Assembly: GCF_003054705.1 (NCBI RefSeq)
Contig: NZ_QAYX01000022.1
Location: 496,001-560,000, forward strand
Source of the DNA: Opitutus sp. ER46
GTDB lineage: Bacteria > Verrucomicrobiota > Verrucomicrobiia > Opitutales > Opitutaceae
Reading direction: 5' to 3'
Length of the DNA: 64,000 bases
The position numbers and the translations under genes were made by a program. The notes beneath the pieces were generated by a model. That model was given only the letters and a program-made list of their open reading frames with translations. It made no database searches and was not told where the DNA came from. Each line of letters starts with the position of its first letter. Within the stretch, counting starts at the first letter, position 1. Shown here one piece after another: positions 11,852 to 17,337 of this stretch.

Positions 11852-13021
11852 ATGCGGCCAGCGCGCGCTTCGCTTCTCCTCCTGCCTGTCGTCTACCTGG
11901 GCTTTATCAGCCTCGGGCTGCCTGACGGCACGTTTGGGGTGGCGTGGCCGACATTGCACGAGTCGCTGCGGCTCCCCATCGGCCTGGCCGGGCCGTTGAT
12001 GCTGGTCGGGACGTTCTTCTCCGCGATATCGAGCTTCTCGAGCGGCCGGATCATTGCGCGGTTCAAGACCGGCCCGGTCGTGCTCGTCAGCTGCATCCTC
12101 ACCGGCAGTGCGCTCCTCATCATTTCGCGGGCCCAGCACCTCGGATGGCTGGTGCTCGCGACGCTCCCGCTGGGTTTCGGCGCCGGGGCGGTGGATGCCG
12201 GCCTGAACGGGTATGTGGCCCGGCACTACAGCGGCCGGCACATGAACTGGCTGCACGCGTGCTGGGGCATCGGCGCGACCACCGGGCCGCTCCTGATGTC
12301 GGCCGCGATCGCGACCGGCGGCGGATGGCGCGGCGGGTACGCCACGATCGGCTCGATCCAGCTCTGCCTTGCCGTCGTGTTCGTGCTCACACTGCCGCTC
12401 TGGGGCGCGGTGCCGTCGCATGCGCCGCAGCAATCCGGCGGTGGCGCCGGCGGCCCCGAACCTACCCGGGGCGCAGACAGCCTGGAGGGCTGGGCCTCGG
12501 CCGGGATCTTCGCGATCTATGTCGCGGCCGAGATGAACACCGGGCTGTGGGCGAGTTCGGTCATGGTGAACAGCCGCGGCGTCGCCCCCGCGACCGCCGG
12601 CTTCTGCGTCTCCGCCTACTACGGTTCGATCACGGCGGGCCGGGTCCTCTCCGGCTTCGTCATCGAGCGCGTGGGCAACCGCCGGCTCGTGGCCGGCGGG
12701 GCGTTGCTGGCCATCGTGGGCGCCGTCGGTTTCTCCATGCCACTGCCAGCGGTGCTCACGGGCCTCTCGCTCGTGCTGCTCGGCCTCGGTTTCGCTCCCA
12801 TTTATCCCGGCCTGATGCACGAAGTTCCGCGGCGCTTCGCGCCGGAGGCGGTGCAGACGGTGATCGGCCGGCAGTCCGGCGGCGCCTACGTCGGCGGAGC
12901 CGCCGTGCCCGCGCTGGCCGGCTGGATCGCCCAGTACTCGCTCGAGAGCCTCACCTGGGGCGTCCTCGGCGGCGCCGTTCTCCTGCTCGCCGCCATCCGC
13001 TGGCTCGACCACCGGACCTGA
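11852..13021 (+). CDS. Major facilitator superfamily transporter
   Basis: This 389-residue protein has about twelve hydrophobic segments beginning with LLLLPVVYLGFISLGLPDGTFG. Features such as LPLGFGAGAVDAGLNGYVARHYSGRHMNWLHACWGIG in the first half and VNSRGVAPATAGFCVSAYYGSITAGR in the second half resemble the FucP-like sugar and multidrug branches of the MFS. The substrate cannot be named. It follows the AraC-GyrI gene, suggesting a possible drug or sugar link. The start ATG at 11852 is the only sensible one. Confidence 0.85.
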   Translation: MRPARASLLLLPVVYLGFISLGLPDGTFGVAWPTLHESLRLPIGLAGPLMLVGTFFSAISSFSSGRIIARFKTGPVVLVSCILTGSALLIISRAQHLGWLVLATLPLGFGAGAVDAGLNGYVARHYSGRHMNWLHACWGIGATTGPLLMSAAIATGGGWRGGYATIGSIQLCLAVVFVLTLPLWGAVPSHAPQQSGGGAGGPEPTRGADSLEGWASAGIFAIYVAAEMNTGLWASSVMVNSRGVAPATAGFCVSAYYGSITAGRVLSGFVIERVGNRRLVAGGALLAIVGAVGFSMPLPAVLTGLSLVLLGLGFAPIYPGLMHEVPRRFAPEAVQTVIGRQSGGAYVGGAAVPALAGWIAQYSLESLTWGVLGGAVLLLAAIRWLDHRT

Positions 13022-13092
13022 TCGAAAAGACCGGACTGATCCGACCGATCTGGCACCCGGCTTCCTCCTTCGCCAAGGCACCGGAGGACACG

Positions 13093-13296
13093 CCGGCTTC
13101 CGTCCTTGTCCTCCGGCCTCCGTCTTCAGGCTTCAGGCTTCCGGCCTCCGGCCTCAGGCTTCTGGCTTCCGACATCTGACGTCTGGCCTCCGGCTTCCGG
13201 CCTCAGGCTTCAGGCTTCCGGCTTCCGGCTTCAGGCTTCCGGCTTCAGGCTTCCGGCTTCTGGCCTCCGTCCTCAGCCCTTCAGCCCTTTAGTCTT
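13093..13296. repeat. Heptamer repeat array C between two convergent genes
   Basis: About 200 bases are built almost wholly of seven-base words of the type GGCTTCN, GGCCTCN and a few GACATCT or GACGTCT, in register over long runs. On the minus strand the array starts directly after the stop codon of the transglutaminase-TPR gene (words AAGCCGG, AAGCCTG, AGGCCGG). It has the same period and much the same consensus as arrays A and D. Confidence 0.85.
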
Positions 13297-14439
13297 TCAG
13301 TCTTTTACAATGAACGGCGACTCGCGGGCCAGGCGGGCGCGGAGTTTCTCCAAGCGCACCTTCATGCGGGCGGCGTCTTCGGCGCGGCCAAGTTGATCGA
13401 GCACCACGCACAGCTGCTCGTAGAAGGCAGGTTCGTCGTTCTTGAGGCTGAGGGCGCGCCGCAAGCGCTTCTCCGCCGTGGCCCAGTCACGACGCCGTGC
13501 CGCCTCCCCTGCCAGGTACTCCTGAAAATACGGATTGTCCTCACGGACGACCGCCGCGCGCCGCTCCAGCTTCGCCGCCTTCTTCAGGTCCTCGGGCGTG
13601 CCGAGTTCGCGCAGGACGGCGATGTAGCCATCGAGCGCCACGAGCCCTCGGGGTTGCAGCCGCAGCGAGCGTTCGAAGCACGCCTTGGCCTCCGCGGGGC
13701 GGCCCTCGTTGGCCAGGAGGATGGCGCGATTCGACCACGGACCCGCGCTGGTGGGGTCGATCTCGGTCGCCCGCACGAGGAAGCGCATGGCCTCGTCGGC
13801 GCGTCCATGCAGGATGCGGAAAAAGCCGACGTTGCTGTAGAATTCCGACTGCGCACGCTCGTCGCTGATCTCGACCAAGTCCCGCGTGTCGATGCTGCGG
13901 AGCACGTCGCGGCGGAGGTCGACGACATAGAGCGTGTCGAAGATCGGGACGCGCACGTTGATGTGCGTGACCGCCACGACGTATTTCCCATACCGGTCCC
14001 AGCGCGCAGGCATGTCGACCGTCTGGAACGCGGCGGGCAGGCCGAAGTCGCGTGCCACCGCCATGAACAGGAAGGAGAAGCCCACGCAGTTGCCGCGGCG
14101 GCGGCGGAAGGTCTCGCGGGCGTCGTACGTTGCCTCGGCATCGTAGGCGAAGTTCAGCCCACTCGGCAGCAGGATGGCGTCGATGATATCGCGCAGCGTG
14201 CCGACCGACGAGGAGTGCTTCGCCACTCGGGCGGAAAAAAACTGCCGCATCTCATCGTCGACGCGCAGCAGGTCGCGCGGGTCCTCCGGAGGCGTCCACA
14301 GCTCGATGGCAGGCGCGGCCGTCGGGGCGGCCGCCTCTTCGCCCCGAACGGCGGGTGCGACCGCAGCCGCCATGATCAACGCTGCGCCGGCGGCGGCACA
14401 GCGGGCGGTCCATCGAAGTTGGCGGAGGGAAGGAGTCAT
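13297..14439 (-). CDS. Secreted transglutaminase-like protein with TPR repeats
   Basis: A signal peptide (residues about 1-33, ending AVAPAVRG) exports this 380-residue protein. Residues 80-180 form a transglutaminase-like cysteine hydrolase fold: RRGNCVGFSFLFMAVARDFG (Cys118), VAVTHINV (His159) and YVVDLR (Asp174) give the catalytic triad. The C-terminal half (about 195-370) has TPR helices (FRILHGRADEAMRFLVRATEIDP; NRAILLANEGRPAEAKACFERSL). Such proteins are common in Verrucomicrobia, but the substrate is unknown; peptide amide cleavage or a binding role are both possible. Four copies of a 23-bp palindrome lie 76-245 bases upstream of its start, the most obvious regulatory feature in the window. 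Confidence 0.85.
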   Translation of the reverse strand: MTPSLRQLRWTARCAAAGAALIMAAAVAPAVRGEEAAAPTAAPAIELWTPPEDPRDLLRVDDEMRQFFSARVAKHSSSVGTLRDIIDAILLPSGLNFAYDAEATYDARETFRRRRGNCVGFSFLFMAVARDFGLPAAFQTVDMPARWDRYGKYVVAVTHINVRVPIFDTLYVVDLRRDVLRSIDTRDLVEISDERAQSEFYSNVGFFRILHGRADEAMRFLVRATEIDPTSAGPWSNRAILLANEGRPAEAKACFERSLRLQPRGLVALDGYIAVLRELGTPEDLKKAAKLERRAAVVREDNPYFQEYLAGEAARRRDWATAEKRLRRALSLKNDEPAFYEQLCVVLDQLGRAEDAARMKVRLEKLRARLARESPFIVKD

Positions 14440-14514
14440 CGGCGCAGATCTCCAGGCAGAGTCTCTCCAGACGTCATGAATATAAACAACACCGCCCGGA
14501 CCGCCAGCCCGCCA

Positions 14515-14684
14515 CTGTCACGTATTACGTGACACTCTGGCCCCGACGGTCCGGAGGAAAAGTGTCACGTATTACGTGACACTGGCGCAGGGCGCCCGAG
14601 GGAGGAGCGCGGGAAAGTGTCACGCAATACGTGACACTGGCCGGCGGACACAGGGGCGGGAAGTGTCACGTATTGCGTGACACG
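14515..14684. repeat. Four copies of a 23-bp palindrome
   Basis: Copies are centred at 14525, 14572, 14627 and 14673. The consensus half-site is AGTGTCACGYA around a single central base. Copy 2 (14561-14583) is a perfect 11+1+11 palindrome. Copy 1 is perfect over 9+1+9, copy 3 has one mismatch, and copy 4 differs only near the centre and edges. Centre spacings are 47, 55 and 46. Sequence between copies is unrelated. The cluster lies between the 3' end of the exonuclease gene and the start of the transglutaminase gene, both on the minus strand, and could be an operator array or a repeat-element cluster. Confidence 0.9.
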
Positions 14685-14692
14685 CTTCCGGG

Positions 14693-15382
14693 TCAGGCGC
14701 GGTCGATGGGGAGGTCGCTGGTGGTCAGCGGACGGCCGAGTTGGCGGGCGAGGCGCGCGCTGAGGACCATGAGCAGTTCCGCCGTCGTGAACGTGTCGCC
14801 CGCGGCGGTGTGGCGCTCGAGGGGGCTGATGCCGCAGAGGGTGCAGACCTCGTCGAGGGTGGGTGCGCGCTGGCCGGGATAGCCGCTCTTGCGAAAGGCC
14901 TCGATTGCGCGCATCGCGAGCGCGGCGGTGTCGAGCATCGGGTTCTGCAGCCGGATCTTGAAATGGTACTCCAACGCGGCGTCGAGCATCCGCACATCAA
15001 ACGCCAGGTGGTGTCCCACCAGCACCGCACCCGTGATGACCGGCAGGAACTCCTCCAGCACGCGCGCCTGGGCCTCGCCGAGGCGCGTGTCCGACGGCAG
15101 GATACCGTGCACCTGCACCGCCTCGGTGAGGTGCGCGCCGCGCTGATACACCAGCCAGGAGCGCAGCCCGTTGAGCGGGAGCACGCCCGCCTGGAGCGGC
15201 GCGGCGGCGAGGGAGAGGATCGAGTCCTTGAGCGGGTCGAAGCCGGTGGTCTCGGCGTCGATCACCACGAAGCGCACCTGGTCGAGCGGTGTCTTGCGCG
15301 GGAGCCGTTTGGGAGTGCCGTCGCAATACGCCCGGGCGACCGGGGGCAGCGGCGAGCGGGAGATCCAGGGGAACGAGATCAC
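14693..15382 (-). CDS. DnaQ-like 3'-5' exonuclease (DEDDh)
   Basis: The 229-residue protein holds the three exonuclease motifs: VVIDAETTGFDP (Asp42, Glu44), LVGHHLAFDVRML and RHTAAGDTFTTAEL. These coordinate two metal ions for 3'-5' removal of nucleotides from DNA or RNA. The GTG start at 15382 overlaps the stop of the upstream CBS/DUF294 gene (GTGA), giving a two-gene operon. The same pairing of a CBS-DUF294 protein with an epsilon-like exonuclease occurs widely, suggesting a joint but undefined function. It is not the main polymerase III epsilon subunit on this evidence alone. Confidence 0.85.
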   Translation of the reverse strand: MISFPWISRSPLPPVARAYCDGTPKRLPRKTPLDQVRFVVIDAETTGFDPLKDSILSLAAAPLQAGVLPLNGLRSWLVYQRGAHLTEAVQVHGILPSDTRLGEAQARVLEEFLPVITGAVLVGHHLAFDVRMLDAALEYHFKIRLQNPMLDTAALAMRAIEAFRKSGYPGQRAPTLDEVCTLCGISPLERHTAAGDTFTTAELLMVLSARLARQLGRPLTTSDLPIDRA

Positions 15383-17337
15383 GGGCGTGCGTTGAGGTCG
15401 AATTCGTGGCGGATGGTGTCCTGCACCATGCGCACGACGTCGAAGATGCTGGCCAGCTGCGCCCGCTCGATCTTCGAGAGCTGGACGGTGTTGATGAACC
15501 GCCCCGAGTCGCCGCGTTGCAGCCCGTTGAGGGTGCGGAGGCGCAGCAGGAAATCGTAGGCGTCGCGCGCGGAGCTCGCGAGTTCGGCAAACTGCGGCAG
15601 GTTGCGGCGTACCTCCTCCCACCGACCGCCAGTGGAATAGCGGCGGCTGAGGCGGTGCTTGAGGCAGAGCACGCGGGCGGCGTCGCGCAGCGGGGCCATG
15701 CCGCGGGATTTCAGGTCGAGCCCCTCCTCGCCCACCCCCAACTTCTCCATCACGAAGCGGCCGATGAAATTCAGCGGCAGGGCGGTGTTGACGACGAGTT
15801 CGGCAAACTGTCGCTGCAGCCGGCGGCTGCTCGTGGCGGTGTCGAAGGCGGTCTTGCGCAGCGCGTCGCAGAGCGCCTTGTCGCCGGCGACGAACCGCAG
15901 GTCAAAGAGCACGGTGGCGCGCAGCAGCCGCTCCCCGTCGAGATCGTCGTCGAACGAGGTCAGCTCGGTCTGCCACTCGGTCGTGGTGCGGCACCAGCGC
16001 GGGTTGAGCGCCATCACCCCGCCCTGACAGCGCGCAAAACCGGCGGCGGCCATGCGGTCGATCACGCGGGCGCCGAGCTGCAGGAACACGCCGCGCGCCT
16101 CCTCGTCGGCCGTCGGCGAGCCGAGCGAGTCGAAGACGAGGGCGTTGTCCATGTCGGTGCGGAGAATCTGCTCGCGGCGGCCGTCGCTGCCGACGGACAT
16201 CCACGCCCAGGCGGTGGGCGGGAGGGCGGTGCCCGCGTCGGCAAGTTCGGCCGCGCTCAGCTCCACGAGCCGCTGCACGAGCTCGTCATAAAGTTCGGCG
16301 CACATCTGGCCCAGGTACACGGCGGACACGCCGGCCTCGAGGTAGCTGCGGGCGATGGATTCGATCTCGTCGCAGAGTTCCCGAAAGCGGGCGTTGGAGC
16401 GGGCCAGCCGGATCTCGCGCAAGAGCCCGGCCGGGTGATGGCCGCTCTGGGCCAGCAGGTCCTTCTGCGTACAGACATCGAGCGCGGGTGTCTGCGGCGT
16501 GCCATCCTCGGTCACGCAGACCTGCCCGATGCGTTCGCGCAGCATGAGGAGAATCGCGGCCGTGGCGCTCGAGCGGGGCGAGACGGTGACGACGGGCTTC
16601 GCCATCGCCTGGGCCACGGGGGCGGACTTGTCGAGGCCCTCGACGATCACCTGCTTCACGAGGTTGTTCGCGGTGACGATGCCCAGCGGACGCCGCTCGG
16701 GATCGACGACGAGGATGGATGGCACGCGCTTGGCGGCCATGAGGGCGGCGGCCTCGCTGATCGGCGCCTCGGGGGCGCAGGTGAGGAGCCGGTCGATCGG
16801 ACGCGGCTGCACGAGCTGGGCGCCATCGAGGTGGGCCTGGAGGATGTTCTTGGCGCGGCCGGTGATGGCGGAGTCACTCGGCTCGGCCAGGGACACCGAG
16901 CGGCCGACACGAGCCACCCAGTAGGAGTGGCGGCGGACGTAGTTGCGCGCCTCATCGTAGCGCGTGAGCAGGGCGCGGATGCGGGCGGCCGGGAGGCCGT
17001 AGAACAGTGAGTCCTCGGCCGCCTGCGCGGAGACGCTGTGCTGCGACTCATTGTGCATCACGGCAGTGAAGCCCAGGACGTCGCCCACGTCGCGGATGTC
17101 GACGCGCTCGCGGCGGCCCTCGACCTCCCAGATGTACTCCACGCGGCCGCGGGCGAGGAACAGCACCTCGGCTTTCGGCGCGTCGCCCTGCTTCCAGGCG
17201 TACTCACCCGCGGCGATGGCCCGCACATACGCGTCGCCGGCGAGGGCTTGCACCTCCTCGGCGGGGAGCATGGAGAACGGCGGGAAGCGACGCAGGGCGG
17301 TCGCGATGCGATCGGGAATGACGTTGTTGGGCTGCAT
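15379..17337 (-). CDS. Cyclic-nucleotide-binding, CBS-pair and DUF294 nucleotidyltransferase protein
   Basis: This 652-residue protein has four parts. An N-terminal cNMP-binding domain (about 15-140) begins FPPFSMLPAEEVQALA. A CBS pair (about 180-310) contains RVPSILVVDPERRPLGIVT. A DUF294 nucleotidyltransferase domain contains MSVGSDGRREQILRTDMDNAL, with GS and DxD-like acidic residues as in GlnD. A DUF294 C-terminal helical domain ends the chain. Such proteins are thought to be nucleotide-responsive uridylyl- or adenylyl-transferases, but no target is established. It forms an operon with the downstream DnaQ-like exonuclease (four-base overlap). Confidence 0.88.
   Translation of the reverse strand: MQPNNVIPDRIATALRRFPPFSMLPAEEVQALAGDAYVRAIAAGEYAWKQGDAPKAEVLFLARGRVEYIWEVEGRRERVDIRDVGDVLGFTAVMHNESQHSVSAQAAEDSLFYGLPAARIRALLTRYDEARNYVRRHSYWVARVGRSVSLAEPSDSAITGRAKNILQAHLDGAQLVQPRPIDRLLTCAPEAPISEAAALMAAKRVPSILVVDPERRPLGIVTANNLVKQVIVEGLDKSAPVAQAMAKPVVTVSPRSSATAAILLMLRERIGQVCVTEDGTPQTPALDVCTQKDLLAQSGHHPAGLLREIRLARSNARFRELCDEIESIARSYLEAGVSAVYLGQMCAELYDELVQRLVELSAAELADAGTALPPTAWAWMSVGSDGRREQILRTDMDNALVFDSLGSPTADEEARGVFLQLGARVIDRMAAAGFARCQGGVMALNPRWCRTTTEWQTELTSFDDDLDGERLLRATVLFDLRFVAGDKALCDALRKTAFDTATSSRRLQRQFAELVVNTALPLNFIGRFVMEKLGVGEEGLDLKSRGMAPLRDAARVLCLKHRLSRRYSTGGRWEEVRRNLPQFAELASSARDAYDFLLRLRTLNGLQRGDSGRFINTVQLSKIERAQLASIFDVVRMVQDTIRHEFDLNARP

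Follow-up and report, generated by a model that had tools for sequence, protein, structure and literature searches.

Why should four copies of one 23-bp palindrome stand in a row in the gap between the 3′ end of an exonuclease gene and the 5′ end of a transglutaminase-TPR gene? The original prediction, made from the 64-kb stretch of DNA analyzed here (the window), offered three explanations: an operator for a dimeric repressor, a site for a nucleoid protein, or a REP/REPIN cluster. Our analysis suggests, with a probability of about 0.8, that the palindromes of the array are clustered recognition sites for a dedicated Cro/C1-like helix-turn-helix (HTH) protein of ~120 to 150 amino acids, whose gene and dispersed palindromes would together form a REP-like system.

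The array in the window and its dispersed copies

A search of the window at up to 3 mismatches returned exactly four copies of AGTGTCACGYANTRCGTGACACT, compared with a chance expectation of 0 (100 dinucleotide shuffles), in agreement with the number first reported. The start-to-start spacings of 47, 55, and 46 were likewise reproduced, as was the single perfect palindrome (copy 2). The position of the array also held, except that it begins one base earlier, at 14514 instead of 14515. The features of the locus, in window coordinates, are as follows.

13297-14439, minus strand: transglutaminase-like and TPR gene (longest ORF), flanking the array
14514-14684: four-copy array, P-47-P-55-P-46-P
14514-14536: palindrome copy 1, ACTGTCACGTA-T-TACGTGACACT, 1 mismatch to the degenerate consensus
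14561-14583: palindrome copy 2, perfect 11-1-11 palindrome, 0 mismatches
14584-14615, plus strand: central spacer of 32 nt, containing CGAGGGA, of the partly conserved spacer class of four-copy arrays
14616-14638: palindrome copy 3, 1 unpaired position near the center, 0 mismatches to the degenerate consensus
14662-14684: palindrome copy 4, 1 mismatch
14693-15382, minus strand: RNase T/DnaQ-like exonuclease gene (start by gene caller), flanking the array

The exonuclease gene, whose product matches PF00929 (E = 7.5e-21, on the longer ORF 14693-15622), has its stop at 14693, 8 bp from copy 4. The protein encoded on the other side matches PF01841 (E = 3.3e-6) and TPR_2 (E = 2.7e-12), and the 5′ end of its gene lies 74 bp from copy 1 if the longest ORF is taken (14439) or 140 bp if the gene-caller start is used (14373). 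No Rfam match was obtained within 13000-16000. At the strict limit of E ≤ 1e-30, the exonuclease had no match in any of 26 congeners.

The 23-mer search of the complete genome and its relatives that the original prediction had proposed located the palindrome 74 times in the window's genome (G000; 5.71 Mb in 25 contigs), counting both strands and allowing ≤3 mismatches, whereas a reversed control gave none; a stricter core pattern gave 71. At ≤2 mismatches, the palindrome was present in 69 of 252 Opitutaceae genomes, with 1 to 81 copies in each and wide differences among congeners. A wider contig scan recovered at least 120 stretches, and those listed carried the titles Opitutaceae, Opitutae, Opitutus, Opitutia, or Verrucomicrobia. 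The exact palindrome was not found in viral contigs.

Flanked fetches around the 71 strict places contained 77 copies (≤5 mismatches) in 26 clusters, a set from which clusters of degenerate copies alone may be missing. Ten clusters, the window array among them, fall in the P-46-P-55-P-46-P spacing class; in one of the ten, 36 replaces the final 46. The remainder are three four-copy clusters with a longer middle gap, six pairs at 54-55, three pairs at 112, one pair at 46, one triple, and two singles. The spacers had originally been described as unrelated, which was nearly right: same-class spacers are somewhat more alike than letter-shuffled ones (0.44 versus 0.36 for 16 spacers of the 46 type; 0.52 versus 0.33 for 15 of the 55 type) and far less alike than the palindromes (0.91 across all 77 copies). 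The 55-type spacers share a conserved CGAGGGA-like center, and among 15 spacers of exactly 32 nt, G occupies column 18 in 15 and column 19 in 14. Because the palindromes are 91% alike and the spacers 44% and 52%, the arrays look related by descent, with the palindromes as the part that was kept. The spacing suggests that the P-55-P pair could be the basic dispersed unit and the four-copy arrays such pairs flanked by further sites; arrays may have arisen by copying of palindrome pairs, after which the spacers drifted and the sites were retained. At four loci of this genome, a second motif, TGTCGCC-N8-GATAC, was observed 35 to 39 bp from palindromes (L177:3175, L179:3139, L180:3061 on the minus strand, and L198:3148).

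According to our own simple gene caller, 23 of the 26 clusters are clear of called genes and three overlap one. Of the adjoining gene ends, 8 of 26 3′ ends and 1 of 26 5′ ends lie within 15 bp; six clusters are situated between convergent genes, and in one of these the stop codons on both sides are 11 bp away. Proximity to stop codons would suit RNA hairpins or bidirectional terminators, as would the strong hairpin into which the palindrome folds (10 pairs and −13.5 kcal/mol for the RNA of copy 2 alone). However, a search of the array region returned no terminator-like site, and co-variation of the palindrome with a recognition helix (see below) indicates contact between protein and DNA, which renders a function at the RNA level very improbable indeed.

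Dispersed, mostly intergenic, palindromic, within the 20- to 40-bp range, and often arranged as inverted doublets, the repeats have the general characteristics of REPs. Scatter over hundreds of intergenic sites together with an adjacent RAYT gene had been named at the outset as the mark of a repeat element. The scatter was confirmed, on a scale of dozens rather than hundreds, while no RAYT gene was found in 168 palindrome loci and no palindrome at the 13 Y1 loci of this genome. A classical REP/REPIN family mobilized by a RAYT (Y1 transposase) and carrying the HTH gene along as a passenger would account for the inverted doublets, the fixed spacing, and the location near gene ends. Y1 genes are also at hand, with 13 matches (PF01797) in the window's genome and 12 to 23 in the four copy-richest of 57 relatives. 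Nevertheless, the palindrome is absent at ≤5 mismatches from all 13 Y1 loci of this genome, and ~14 kb separate the nearest Y1 gene from the closest of the 71 strict copies. The 168 palindrome loci, some of them overlapping, contained no Y1 ORF according to a home-made profile; this profile recovers 32 of 42 Y1 loci, although many of the 42 had served as its seeds. Furthermore, two relatives are rich in Y1 matches and have 0 copies of the palindrome (G056 with 49 matches, G044 with 17), and, of 154 six-base palindrome edges, none contained GTAG and one contained CGTC. G044 and G056 are of the same order and belong to other families. Overall, mobilization by a RAYT is improbable.

A small HTH protein encoded between palindromes

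The 549 genes beside palindromes at 144 loci were clustered into families. The largest recurrent family by rows was a small HTH protein of 118 to 133 residues (11 rows, 6 loci), encoded between two palindromes 386 to 456 bp apart in five of the six loci. Sulfatases ranked second by rows (10) and first by loci (10 versus 6), and a sulfatase was the nearest gene in six loci compared with five for the HTH gene. The loci concerned are listed here.

Sulfatase within two genes of a palindrome: L027, L036, L037, L046, L053, L054, L060, L076, L101, L116

Sulfatases form a large paralogous family in these bacteria. They were set aside as the partner because their genes do not form a bracketed unit and at least 5 of the 10 are near-identical orthologues in two groups; they were presumably met by chance as members of a large family.

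The association was also assessed from the side of the protein, using 91 HTH loci: 30 best-match loci (one per genome), the copy of the window's genome, and 60 further loci picked by their place in the search listing, irrespective of palindrome (later loci, L303 to L332, mostly duplicated earlier matches and were left unscanned). A near-perfect 23-bp palindrome (at least 10/11 pairs) occurred within 400 bp of the HTH gene in 71 of these loci, on both sides in 47 and on one side in 24. The same loci contained 156 such palindromes in the ~72.8 kb near HTH genes versus 7 in the other 164 kb. Among the 20 loci with none, 11 hold pairs of similar, less perfect palindromes detected by a looser test; the remaining 9 of 91 were free of palindromes even in that test, as was L394, one of five loci fetched later.

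The HTH protein family was identified, by protein search alone, in 130 of 252 Opitutaceae genomes. In an even draw of 387 genomes across the phylum, it was found in 18, of which 17 were Opitutaceae, including the window's genome, and one was a weak match outside the family (1.3e-7). Viral contigs, plasmids, and phages yielded no HTH protein. Thus, in the genomes searched, the repeat system appears almost restricted to the Opitutaceae. Gene and palindrome occur together: the HTH gene was present in all 23 genomes with at least 10 palindrome copies and in 37 of 40 genomes with at least 5 copies, compared with 93 of the 212 others (Fisher p = 2.6e-9), and was not detected in three genomes with 5 to 7 copies.

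A single gene of this family is present in the window's genome.

C24:708627-709073, plus strand: sole HTH gene of the window's genome, 148-aa ORF

The linked regulator that the original prediction had advised looking for therefore exists beside an array, on a different contig from the window. Its start is preceded, at a distance of 46 bp, by the final palindrome of the array at C24:708384-708580, and downstream of it lies a gene for a RarA/MgsA family ATPase (MgsA_C, E = 5.6e-61). The palindrome assigned to the HTH protein as a putative site is AGTGTCACGTATTACGTGACACT. Five of the 26 clusters, including the adjacent one, lie within ~50 kb of the HTH gene (G000:C24:660000-708600; binomial probability of 1.9e-5, calculated post hoc).

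Six HTH proteins gave no Pfam or NCBIfam match above the curated cut-offs. The best Pfam score was 21.1 bits for YdaS_toxin (cut-off, 30), the weak Pfam matches were mostly to HTH families, and the best NCBIfam score of 13.7 bits was far under the cut-offs. PHROGs, which has no cut-offs, gave a best E value of 5e-4, reached with three shorter versions. In the predicted model (pLDDT of 73), a long helix at the N terminus is followed by an HTH domain of four helices (53-65, 71-79, 83-92, and 99-115). Its fold matches were weak (Foldseek best E value of 0.48; VIA-align Z of at most 8.0), and the best of them were to repressor-type, restriction-controller, and POU-type domains; a sequence search of solved structures gave one unconvincing match (E = 0.16). 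No nuclease, transposase, or other catalytic motif was recognized in the protein, and its Pfam scan contained no ParB-type domain. Judging from these weak matches, the C-terminal half may share its HTH fold with Cro/C1-type repressors, YdaS, HipB/HigA-type regulators, and restriction-modification controllers. Cro/C1-type and related regulators are dimeric and bind palindromic operators at one or a few sites, mostly beside their own gene. In contrast, the palindromes described here occupy dozens of dispersed sites, and the HTH gene is often bracketed on both sides.

The upstream palindromes suggest autoregulation, and through such a copy the HTH protein would repress its own gene. This lends some weight to a conventional operator array serving repression of the transglutaminase-TPR gene or of a regulon: the array is upstream of that gene, the HTH protein is a likely binder, and sulfatases accompany palindromes in 10 of 144 loci. 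Yet the clusters are not confined to promoters, six of the 26 being convergent, and no gene family stands beside more than 10 of the 144 loci. An operator of the transglutaminase gene only is untenable because of the 74 dispersed copies and the 6/26 convergent clusters, and a conventional operator array in general is hardly to be expected. Of the three explanations offered originally, a mix of operator and REP is best supported: co-variation argues for an HTH reader, and the 74 copies for a dispersed repeat.

Co-variation of the palindrome with the recognition helix

For the analysis of co-variation, 70 of the 71 palindrome-bearing loci were used, with palindromes within 260 bp of the gene (all four at the locus of the window's genome). 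These loci contained 37 different half-sites (for example, AGTGTCACGTA, TTTGTAACGTA, TTTGTCATCTA, AGTGTCACCTA, and CAAAGTCCGTA), which end at the center in A in 70 of 70 loci, and the palindrome varies symmetrically between subfamilies. Mutual information was highest between residue 69 and base 2 (36 loci combine R with T, and 20 combine Y with G), and residue 69 was also coupled to base 1. Further couplings linked residue 88 to base 8, residue 87 to base 6, and residue 83 to base 4, with residues 82 to 89 (helix 3) co-varying with bases 4 to 8. The maximum mutual information was 0.43 versus at most 0.17 in 60 shuffles, and 6 of the 10 best residue-base pairs fell within residues 81 to 91 (mean of 0.67 and maximum of 5 in shuffles). 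The co-varying residues thus map to helix 83-92 and position 69 of the model.

Shared ancestry was addressed with branch-disjoint pairs on a tree built without the tested columns, in which branches were used whether supported or not. When base 2 differed, residue 69 differed in 13 of 15 pairs (background, 5/20); the corresponding values were 6/7 for base 6 and residue 87 (background, 2/22) and 7/7 for base 8 and residue 88 (background, 9/22). Base 9 had no clear partner residue in the HTH by this test. With supported branches, an independent-pairs test left one to four pairs for the four visible traits, too few to reach 0.05. In leave-out prediction, for which loci sharing the half-site were excluded, residue 69 gave base 2 correctly in 62 of 69 cases compared with 40 by the commonest base; the results were 65 of 67 versus 61 for base 4, 59 of 67 versus 52 for base 6, and 59 of 67 versus 53 for base 8. 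The HTH protein of the window's genome (F69, R83, Q84, N87, E88, F89) fits its own palindrome if F is counted as aromatic like Y; N87 allows no clear assignment, as it goes with C in 3 loci and with A in 4.

Co-variation with the recognition helix indicates contact between protein and DNA, and the palindrome is very probably read by the HTH protein. Their co-evolution suggests that an HTH dimer would bind each palindrome, with one HTH per half-site. A cognate gene that is flanked by the same repeat and varies together with it is thus observed here, the gene being that of the HTH protein and not a RAYT.

Searches for cognate palindromes were made in 400-kb samples of three genomes with other half-sites, at ≤3 mismatches. 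The samples contained 12 copies in G232; 7 in G194, of which 3 bracket its HTH gene and the other 4 are spread over three of 20 regions; and 1 in G058. Twenty letter-shuffled palindromes per genome gave 0 copies in each sample. Other palindrome types were also present in the samples, and two of them recurred beside further HTH genes of these genomes: the G194 locus L393 is flanked by the GTCAACTA type, to which most other palindromes of that sample belong, and the G058 locus L395 by a GTTCGTA type seen once in its sample. The locus without a palindrome, L394, is likewise from G058. Of two HTH loci in G161, one has the palindrome on both sides and the other on one side. In all, G161 and G157 carry 8 and 7 HTH genes, respectively, those of G161 with different palindromes. 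The presence of many HTH genes in one genome suggests orthogonal protein-palindrome pairs.

HTH genes occur at many unrelated places. Among 236 neighbor genes, the largest cluster had six members, all from one genus, and a conserved gene neighborhood was not found. One syntenic HTH locus was observed in a single genus (L215, L217, L224, L228, L229, and L230), with flanks ~78 to 86% alike between palindrome types. At this locus, gene and palindrome diverge more than the flanks, which reads as a rapid joint change of specificity.

Spread of the repeat and comparison with known systems

In other species, the palindromes occur as pairs spaced 54-55, as tandems with steps of 57 or 66, or singly. 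In one case (L088:2035-2228), four palindromes follow each other in exact 57-bp steps with two spacers alike, in a BIME-like tandem. A ~118-bp MITE-like element, bounded by the terminal inverted repeats GTATTACTCTGTTA/TAACAGAGTAATAC and with the palindrome in its middle, occurs in lake Opitutae MAGs.

MITE-like element: L034, L060, L064, L075, L094, L105, L028, L069, and others

Ten candidate empty-site cases were identified, few and imperfect. In one clear insertion, the MITE-like element of L115 is missing at the matching place of L089; the L088/L083 case is less clear because its second site has a degenerate palindrome, and other candidates are mostly extra tandem units or divergence at an HTH locus. 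Because the palindrome of the lake Opitutae sits inside this element, more than one vehicle may carry it. That the palindromes are merely hitch-hikers in ordinary MITEs of DDE transposons, as the element and its presence in L115 and absence from L089 could be taken to mean, is nonetheless scarcely probable. Such ends were not visible in the inspected flanks of the copies in the window's genome and several other species, and hitch-hiking leaves the palindromes that bracket the HTH gene unexplained.

The main rival is a lineage-specific nucleoid-associated or insulating HTH protein, for which the arrays would be selected sites useful to the host. This agrees with the strict spacing of arrays whose spacers have diverged, with the far better conservation of palindromes than of spacers, with the post hoc concentration of clusters near the HTH gene, and with the location of clusters near 3′ rather than 5′ gene ends. 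Dispersed palindromes read by one protein are familiar from ParB/parS, Noc, MatP/matS, and SlmA, the sites of which differ in sequence from the present palindrome. In contrast to those systems, the HTH protein is small and lineage restricted, and its specificity changes fast. Moreover, the palindrome is patchily distributed (69/252), species of a single genus can carry different types of it at a shared locus, and HTH genes are found at many unrelated loci. Patchiness, type switching, and scattered HTH genes look selfish and fast-turning rather than housekeeping, and a nucleoid function is therefore unlikely, though a serious contender.

The best reading of the array would instead be a REP-like dispersed repeat with a small HTH protein as its partner in the stead of a RAYT. 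The bracketing of the gene and the patchiness of the dispersed copies favor an element whose spread is aided by the HTH protein. As an ordinary autoregulated repressor needs no downstream palindrome, it could be guessed that the protein serves a recombinase, of the host or of foreign origin, in trans in a targeting or protective role. RAYTs are thought to act in trans in this way for REPINs. A more far-reaching version, which we consider tentative and somewhat doubtful, is a self-propagating system without a recognizable transposase, in which the HTH protein would be a mobility factor recruiting host replication or recombination enzymes, and several orthogonal pairs per genome (e.g., in G194, G058, and G161) would diversify jointly and quickly.

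REPINs were defined previously (PMC3116915), and the pairing described here shares several properties with REP/REPIN-RAYT systems as presented in PMC3116915 and PMC3733652: short intergenic palindromes, often in inverted doublets and patchy across species, and a cognate gene flanked by its own palindrome, with repeat and protein thought to co-evolve. In contrast, the partner here is an HTH protein of 120 to 150 aa and not a Y1 HUH transposase, and the palindromes are perfect or near-perfect 11-1-11 structures with an A-N-T center and without the GTAG tag. Judged by these sequence features, the system resembles a REP/RAYT pair in its apparent working, yet is not a member of that class, as neither the tag nor the transposase was found at the palindromes examined. 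Opitutus terrae was reported to be rich in GTAG repeats, which are a different class (PMC3733652). The same paper ties dispersed palindromes with a known partner gene to tyrosine transposases and lists some classes without one. Among the latter, CGTC-tagged REPs, RPE, and dRS3 are likewise dispersed palindromes reported there without a dedicated transposase; unlike them, the present repeat has an HTH partner, and CGTC was seen at 1 of 154 edges. A search of the open-access literature by title and abstract, which is no proof of absence, returned nothing describing this palindrome-HTH pair.

The finding raises the question of how repeats spread when a DNA-binding protein alone is in evidence. 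In addition, the 37 half-sites in 70 loci constitute a set of naturally varied protein-site pairs that would be useful for deriving a recognition code.
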